DNA from: a virus
Direction: 5' to 3' (one strand)
IMG/VR virus record: IMGVR_UViG_3300049736_000297
Location: 1 to 20,453 of that record
Length of the DNA: 20,453 nt
The first letter of the stretch is position 1; each line of letters starts with the position of its first letter. The notes beneath the pieces are model-generated. The model made no database searches, had not been told where the DNA came from, and was given only the letters and a program-made list of their open reading frames with translations. The position numbers and the translations under genes are program-made. This document shows, piece after piece, positions 17,400 through 17,867 of the stretch.

Positions 17400-17567
17400 T
17401 CACTTGGTGTAAAGTTGACCACGATAACAGAATGTACCATGGGTCTCTTTGGATTCTACACAACGTGTATTATACTCAACACCACGATATGAGGTGTGAG
17501 TAATTTGTGCGTCGTGAAGTGCAGATGCTCTGTTGATCTGCTTACGAATCAGATTAAGTGTGTTCAT
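17400..17567 (-). CDS. 55-residue YRG-motif protein (DUF4278-like)
   Basis: ATG at 17567 preceded by TTAGGAG eight bases upstream. The product is MNTLNLIRKQINRASALHDA, then QITHTSYRGVEYNT and RCVESKETHGTFCYRGQLYTK. The double YRG pattern (T-x-YRG-x-x-Y ... YRG-x-x-Y) is characteristic of DUF4278, a small protein family of cyanobacteria and their phages of unknown function. It is short and easily missed. It lies 40 bases behind the riboswitch-controlled 54-codon gene with no promoter between, so it probably belongs to the same transcript and may share its glutamine-responsive control, at least at the RNA level. Confidence 0.7.
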   Translation of the reverse strand: MNTLNLIRKQINRASALHDAQITHTSYRGVEYNTRCVESKETHGTFCYRGQLYTK

Positions 17568-17607
17568 TGTAGTTACTCCTAAAGTAGTTGGAATTTAATC
17601 CGTTCCT

Positions 17608-17772
17608 TTAGTCGTTTGCGTCCCAAGGGTAGCAATCAGGTGTTGATTCCTTCATGACCTCAATCAATTCCACCTTCATTTCAGGAGAAATATTCTCATT
17701 TGTTCTCATCCGTAGCATAATGCTATCAGCTTGAGTACACGTGAGTGATGAATAGAATAATAATTCTAGCAT
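17608..17772 (-). CDS. 54-residue peptide behind the glutamine-riboswitch-like leader
   Basis: ATG at 17772. The product is MLELLFYSSLTCTQADSIML, RMRTNENISPEMKVELIEVM and KESTPDCYPWDAND. The TC-x-QAD-x-I...R...P-x-x-K-x-E-L-I-E-V-x-x-x-STP-x-C pattern belongs to short ORFs of marine cyanobacteria and cyanophages; the 'downstream-peptide' RNA motif is named for short ORFs found after it. A GGAG sequence lies 11 bases before the ATG, inside the region that can pair with the leader. Known cyanobacterial glutamine riboswitches control inhibitors of glutamine synthetase, so a role in nitrogen control is a reasonable inference, but the function of this peptide is not known. Confidence 0.75.
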   Translation of the reverse strand: MLELLFYSSLTCTQADSIMLRMRTNENISPEMKVELIEVMKESTPDCYPWDAND

Positions 17773-17831
17773 GGGATGAACGGCTCCGTTCCGCGACTTA
17801 CTTGCGTCCCACCCAAGAGTGGGATGAACGA
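17773..17831 (-). promoter_or_regulatory. Glutamine-riboswitch-like RNA (downstream-peptide type)
   Basis: Minus-strand elements: P1 CGTTC (17826-17830) with GAACG (17787-17791); P2 CCCAC (17819-17823) with GTGGG (17808-17812); then the conserved-looking junction GACGCAAGTAAGTCGCGG. This fits the glutamine-binding glnA/downstream-peptide RNAs known from marine cyanobacteria and cyanophages. CGTTCATCCCA of the 5' arm recurs just before the ATG (17772-17782), so GAACG can pair either with the aptamer arm or with the region around GGAG. The promoter 17839-17867 would start the RNA at the aptamer. The pairing is seen; ligand and switching are inference. Confidence 0.75.
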
Positions 17832-17838
17832 TGGTATT

Positions 17839-17867
17839 AGTATACCATACTATGTATACGATGTCAA
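17839..17867 (-). promoter_or_regulatory. Consensus sigma70 promoter of the riboswitch transcript
   Basis: TTGACA (17862-17867) and TATACT (17839-17844), 17-base spacing, on the minus strand. The predicted start at about 17832 is only a few bases before the aptamer P1 helix. The -35 overlaps the end of the hairpin 17866-17887. Confidence 0.85.

Follow-up and report, generated by a model that had tools for sequence, protein, structure and literature searches.

The window analysed here (the whole stretch of 20,453 bases) is a fragment of a T4-like cyanophage carrying psbA, thyX, phoH, gp32 and tail genes, and a leader on the minus strand of this ocean cyanobacterial virus DNA is most probably (with a probability of about 0.7) a double junction of the glutamine-I riboswitch type, with the gp197 reading frame in the loop of helix P2b and glutamine turning on gp198. 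In the predicted RNA, two three-way junctions would interlock and have helix P3 in common. The outer one would be formed by CGUUC1/GAACG2, P2a and P3, with AAGUA and RAAG as its two loop-E strands, RAAG reading AAAG in the window, and the inner, circularly permuted one by GAACG1/CGUUC2, P2b and the same P3. Because gp197 would sit in the loop of P2b, strands of the aptamer would double as its start codon and as its last codons. In the proposed mechanism, CURAAG, which includes the gp197 stop codon, would pair without glutamine with CUUYAG at the gp198 ribosome site and keep gp198 off, and glutamine would steady P3, loop E and outer P1, which would free this site and switch the DUF4278-like gp198 on. 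A ribosome reading gp197 would melt the 3' half and may, by coupling, open gp198 too. The parts of the element are the following:

17862-17867, minus strand: -35 box TTGACA of a promoter TTGACA-17-TATACT, with 11 of 12 matches and TG before the -10 box
17839-17844, minus strand: -10 box TATACT, ending 8 nt before CGTTC1, with a putative start site after it
17826-17830, minus strand: CGUUC1, 5' strand of outer P1, pairing with 17601-17605 in the nested fold
17807-17824, minus strand: P2a hairpin UCCCAC/GUGGGA, of which 64 distinct versions pair, with many compensatory changes
17799-17806, minus strand: junction CGCAAGUA, containing the G and C of the ligand site as well as the 5' loop-E strand
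17794-17798, minus strand: P3 5' strand AGUCG, pairing with 17610-17614, with the compensations AAUCG/CGAUU and AGUCA/UGACU
17787-17791, minus strand: GAACG1, 5' strand of inner P1, pairing with 17778-17782, with CAACG1/CGUUG2 in 8 distinct rows
17784-17787, minus strand: GGAG, ribosome site of gp197, in the inner P1 loop; its presence tracks the ORF
17778-17782, minus strand: CGUUC2, 3' strand of inner P1, lying within repeat copy 2 (17772-17782)
17772-17776, minus strand: P2b 5' strand UCCCA, its last base being the A of ATG, pairing with 17621-17625
17608-17772, minus strand: 54-codon ORF, which is syn9 gp197 (phrog_504), inside the P2b loop, its last codons being aptamer sequence
17600-17625, minus strand: 3' half of the double aptamer, UGGGACGCAAACGACUAAAGGAACGG, with the P2b 3' strand, junction, P3 3' strand, stop codon and GAACG2
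17610-17614, minus strand: P3 3' strand CGACU, with covariation
17606-17611, minus strand: CUAAAG including the stop codon, overlapping P3 and loop E and pairing with 17579-17584 in the predicted OFF state
17601-17605, minus strand: GAACG2, 3' strand of outer P1 in the nested fold, 180 nt downstream and past the ORF
17579-17584, minus strand: CUUUAG, overlapping the gp198 ribosome site
17576-17580, minus strand: AGGAG, gp198 ribosome site, read in the sequence
17400-17567, minus strand: gp198 (phrog_545), DUF4278-like, the proposed regulated gene

An earlier note on this DNA had described a glutamine-riboswitch-like leader, and the strings from which it was drawn are present on the minus strand: CGTTC (17826-17830), P2 (TCCCAC/GTGGGA at 17819-17824 and 17807-17812), the junction, GAACG (17787-17791) and GGAG (17784-17787). 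The 11-base direct repeat that it placed at the aptamer 5' arm and before the ATG is also confirmed, given that CGTTCATCCCA occurs in exactly two exact copies (17820-17830 and 17772-17782, minus strand, the last base of the second being the A of ATG), against 0.18 chance matches expected with one mismatch allowed. What that note did not contain is a second 3' half, TGGGACGCAAACGACTAAAGGAACGG (17600-17625, minus strand), which lies across the end of the ORF and its stop codon. The kinship that it proposed is retained, as a phage relative of glutamine-I, and its anatomy is replaced by a nested one that includes the second 3' half. The fold energy of the leader is unremarkable (z -0.22).

With the -10 box ending so close to CGTTC1, the transcript would begin at the aptamer, and the spacing of 8 nt between promoter and CGTTC recurs in relatives. 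An inverted repeat, GGTATACTAATACC, spans the -10 box (17833-17846 of the window) and is found at the same place in relatives, where it varies on both arms (GGTCTATAATAGACC, GTTAGTGCTATACTAAC, GTGATGGATTCATCAC). Upstream of this repeat there is often TATAAATA, which is like a T4-type late promoter, and transcripts from there would open with a hairpin ahead of the riboswitch.

The predicted nested architecture is well supported by the comparison of relatives. Over 91 distinct rows, which are related to each other and many of which come from loci fetched by patterns requiring conserved bases, the pairing of inner P1, P3, P2a and P2b exceeds all 500 shuffles made for each. Compensatory changes are seen in 8 rows for inner P1, 5 for P3, 26 for P2a and 27 for P2b, and all cells pair but one. 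The P3 partners in a tolerant scan of 270 elements were AGUCG/CGACU (247), GGUCG/CGACU (14), AAUCG/CGAUU (3), AGUCA/UGACU (3) and wobble pairings (3), with no unpaired P3 among them. In 8 distinct relatives, with several linkers and contexts, GAACG1/CGUUC2 has changed jointly to CAACG1/CGUUG2 with CGUUC1 and GAACG2 constant, so that the nested pairing fits and a side-by-side pairing is mismatched. This joint change bears out the conserved hairpin that the earlier note had drawn around GGAG, between GAACG and the second repeat copy. The P1 of that note, CGTTC1/GAACG1, is broken in the same relatives, and CGTTC1/GAACG2 is predicted in its place.

The energies point in the same direction. RNAalifold, applied to 56 compact relatives, predicts unaided outer P1, P2a, P3, inner P1 and P2b, and the nested energy is below the side-by-side energy in 56 of 56, with outer P1 in every minimum-energy fold. 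Given that outer P1 is invariant across relatives, support for this helix comes from P3, the energies and homology, in place of covariation of its own. For the window, the ligand-free minimum, in which P2b and inner P1 are formed together with the OFF helix, is -74.9 kcal/mol. At -67.8 kcal/mol, the nested fold of the window lies 7.1 above this minimum with the ligand and loop-E terms uncounted.

Two minimal aptamers lying side by side (CGUUC1/GAACG1 and CGUUC2/GAACG2), perhaps in a bistable arrangement where the tandem exposes GGAG and the nested fold hides it, would account for the spacing CGCA-N10-GGAACG that both halves share and for the weaker single-aptamer matches that Rfam also gives. 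The tandem fold is on average only 2.4 kcal/mol above the nested one in the 56 compact relatives. Nonetheless, this arrangement is unlikely, and it was rejected because P3 links both halves and covaries, because all 56 energies favour the nested fold, and because the tandem P1s mismatch in the 8 rows where the nested fold pairs.

The end of the gp197 ORF was compared across 97 loci, which were collected solely by similarity to the 54-residue peptide. It reads TGG GAC GCA N-AC GA-Y TRA and is followed by AGGAACGG, and the conserved bases resemble the aptamer 3' half at 17786-17812. The choice of codons at this end is fixed, with GAC in 62 of 62 cases, GCA in 62 of 62 and the final GAC in 60 of 62, and AAC among the final codons is invariant; across the large ORFs of the window, GAC makes up 36 of the 247 Asp codons (15%). 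In S-CAM1 (L211, L227) and in L133 the reading frame stops early and the 3' motif is still there. Retention of WDAND for protein reasons alone was rejected in view of the fixed synonymous bases and the fixed bases after the stop; the occurrence of the motif outside the ORF in these last loci and its sharing by different ORF families also speak against it.

Pfam has no family for gp197, which AlphaFold models with moderate confidence (pLDDT 77, pTM 0.55) as a hairpin of two helices. The gene is also present in KJ019089.1 (ACG-2014j; locus L203, 1001-1162), where the GenBank record leaves it unannotated. Most likely gp197 is carried as a passenger, and its translation would disturb the sensor. 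With its ribosome site in the inner hairpin, this translation is probably weak or coupled.

The covariance models of Rfam, by which the earlier note had proposed to check its assignment, have no match in the whole window at gathering thresholds; at relaxed thresholds, the best two matches are RF01739, glutamine-I (29.1 bits against a threshold of 35, E 1.9e-4), and RF01704, glutamine-II (25.0 against 33). The window stays below the RF01739 threshold, its 3' half being hidden behind the ORF. Compact relatives pass for glutamine-I, with scores of 35.2-40.3 (L117 at 40.3, and L123, L099, L320, L185, L109 and L371), which Rfam achieves by joining CGUUC1 to GAACG2, and two compact relatives reach 34.0 and 35.7 for RF01704 with the second half only.

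The predicted three-way junction has the traits of glutamine-I, given that P2a and P3 covary, AAGUA is invariant and the 3' strand of the putative loop E is RAAG, in the A variant in TAA phages such as the window and as GAAG in TGA phages. The pairing CURAAG/CUUYAG encloses GGAACG, as would be expected of the H-type pseudoknot of glutamine-II, and it covaries; it shares bases with P3 and loop E, however, and we take it for the OFF pairing. The crystal structure of glutamine-II has the ligand held by C1, G2, G18, C19, C39 and G40, with the pairs C19:G41 and C5:G36 (PMC6698751). All of these contact bases are present in both the outer and the inner junction, in the window and in relatives, and all linker types observed begin with G, the counterpart of G41. 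Among the inner pairs a flip was observed at 5:36 alone, and this pair belongs to the two that are not highly conserved in glutamine-II. These observations are consistent with two working glutamine sites in the element.

It is conceivable that the element descends from a glutamine riboswitch, no longer binds the ligand and only couples the translation of gp197 and gp198. Glutamine binding by the element is so far a prediction, the window is under the Rfam threshold, and a translated ORF within the aptamer would often disrupt it. However, a loss of binding is quite improbable given that the ligand-contact bases are kept in both junctions in hundreds of relatives, including compact ones without an ORF, and that the type of target gene is the same as for the host riboswitches.

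For the preferred reading, in which glutamine acts on gp198, the relevant strand is CURAAG, which comprises the end of P3, the 3' loop-E strand and the gp197 stop codon. The stop codon and the ribosome site vary together: TAA occurs with CTTTAG in 51 of 51 cases, and TGA with YTTCAG (68) or the wobble YTTTAG (20). TAA with TTCAG has 0 cases, and this missing combination is exactly the one that would not pair. On the gene tree, 18 of the 30 changes of the stop codon fall on the same branch as the corresponding change of the ribosome site, although recombination could carry the stop codon and the ribosome site together. Because the OFF helix is part of the ligand-free minimum, glutamine should favour the release of the gp198 site, and most likely it switches gp198 on.

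The earlier note had glutamine freeing GGAG and turning on the 54-codon peptide, a claim that is left unsupported because GGAG stays enclosed by the inner hairpin whether the window takes its ligand-free or its nested fold; the gp198 ribosome site pairs with the aptamer 3' strand, which makes gp198 the likelier switched gene. The underlying model, a single local aptamer in which CGUUC1/GAACG1 competes with the GAACG1/CGUUC2 hairpin, is very improbable. In its favour, each of the two pairings is there, the hairpin is the more stable one in the absence of ligand (-14.2 versus -11.6 kcal/mol) and GGAG occurs with the ORF. Against it, the model leaves out the conserved second 3' half, does not provide for the P3 covariation, has its local P1 broken by the CAACG1/CGUUG2 change, and is at odds with relatives that keep the hairpin without GGAG and without an ORF.

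The nature of gp198 is in line with a glutamine-responsive gene of the host type. Its C-terminal half is DUF4278-like (22.9 bits against a cutoff of 25.3), the homologue in L109 passes at 26.0, and a gene with the YRG motif (DUF4278-like) lies downstream in 266 of the 267 elements with a readable downstream ORF. Cyanobacterial glutamine riboswitches are ON switches, mainly ahead of DUF4278 genes, and DUF4278 spans the N-terminal region of IF17, an inactivating factor of glutamine synthetase (PMC6316151). This N-terminal region is reportedly dispensable for inhibition, and an inhibition of glutamine synthetase by gp198 is speculation.

The same RNA is found with its genes missing, swapped or added. 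A search without a specified linker gave 9 loci with two compact halves in a row, no ORF between them and gp198 directly after, and a targeted search gave at least 120 compact stretches. The 300 distinct elements include every combination of ORF or short loop in P2a and in P2b. When only the loci fetched without a linker-specific pattern are counted, 170 of the 172 elements with an ORF have the linker GAG*, against 0 of the 12 compact ones (Fisher p 4e-17, the rows being related); with the loci of the targeted search added, the counts are 170 of 188 and 0 of 87. By blastp, the ORFs in P2b form at least 5 clusters, with one further group joined weakly to gp197; one cluster member is a gp196 relative moved into the P2b loop, and nearly all of these ORFs end in DAND, DAHD or GAND. 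In other phages the P2a loop holds the gp196 ORF, of which the start and stop regions pair and covary (CUCAUG/CAUGAGA, CUUAUG/CAUAAGA). A wider interpretation, to which we would give slightly less than an even chance, is that of a two-site, pseudo-symmetric glutamine receptor with tips that serve as gene-insertion sites, where cassettes are swapped, the sensor dictates the start region and the C-terminal DAND, and ribosomes reset the sensor.

The gp196 ORF (66 aa, phrog_6471; syn9 L201 1264-1464 and 31 similar loci) begins about 10 nt after the predicted transcript start and is without a ribosome site, and it may be translated from a near-leaderless mRNA. In L190, a homing-endonuclease-like ORF (phrog_314, 1640-2218) occupies the linker that joins GAACG1-GAG to CGUUC2, and just past GAACG2 there is a second ORF (2450-2998), which is endonuclease VII/HNH-like; the same linker in L256 and L277 holds shorter remnants. 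Homing may be directed at the conserved DNA of the riboswitch. The gp197-gp198 cassette is found in two settings, the nrdB-talC interval in syn9-like phages and the vicinity of thyX in others (L204-L216 and the window), and the riboswitch travels with it. The short-loop half pattern, which host aptamers with a longer P3 would escape, had 11 hits among 84,980 genomes of bacteria and archaea, none of them cyanobacterial; nine are scattered and chance-like, and two are phage-like contigs in one MAG.

With glutamine-I (glnA RNA, RF01739), for example the leader of Synechocystis gifB, the element shares P1 CGUUC/GAACG, P2, the junction ACGCAAGUA, P3, the 3' loop-E strand (GAAG in TGA phages), the ligand-contact bases and a target gene of DUF4278 type. 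It differs in that the phage P3 arm has a second interlocked junction, that whole ORFs lie in the P2 loops and that the window is under the Rfam threshold. Tandem glnA RNAs were noted in 2010 (PMC2864571). In cyanophage S-CREM1 a glnA RNA is annotated at 164232-164330 (RF01739, 44.0 bits; PMC9964418). By its sequence, the S-CREM1 RNA is the element in its compact form, followed by a YRG (DUF4278-like) gene and with one P3 pair mismatched; the accessible part of that publication presents it as an ordinary glnA, with the nested architecture and ORF insertion unmentioned (PMC9964418). Glutamine-II (downstream-peptide, RF01704) has the ligand site, a short ORF downstream and the ON switch in common with the phage element, and its aptamer splits into two strands in vitro (PMC6698751), but it has a pseudoknot, no helix-P3 junction, and its ORF downstream of the aptamer instead of inside.

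Among the open literature searched, the closest precedent is given by the uORFs of the M. tuberculosis metE and ppe2 B12 riboswitches, where a translated short ORF in or near the aptamer affects downstream expression (PMC11260477). The mycobacterial uORF overlaps the aptamer sequence, whereas the phage ORF is a removable, loop-filling cassette with many unrelated versions. Neither the interlocked fold nor the presence of genes in its loops is described in the open literature searched, although an earlier description elsewhere is possible; as far as found, the placement of a gene in the tip of a hairpin has not been described before.

Riboswitches are usually described as untranslated leaders before genes. 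Here, the aptamer would enclose whole genes, in several versions and across hundreds of marine virus sequences. Given that the RNA would impose the last residues of unrelated proteins, it explains a conserved peptide motif that is easily misread by protein analysis. The interlocked junctions would make a natural two-site glutamine sensor, which is a candidate for cooperativity. If gp198 acts like the host DUF4278-containing IF17, cyanophages would use the nitrogen signal of the host and adjust nitrogen assimilation during infection.
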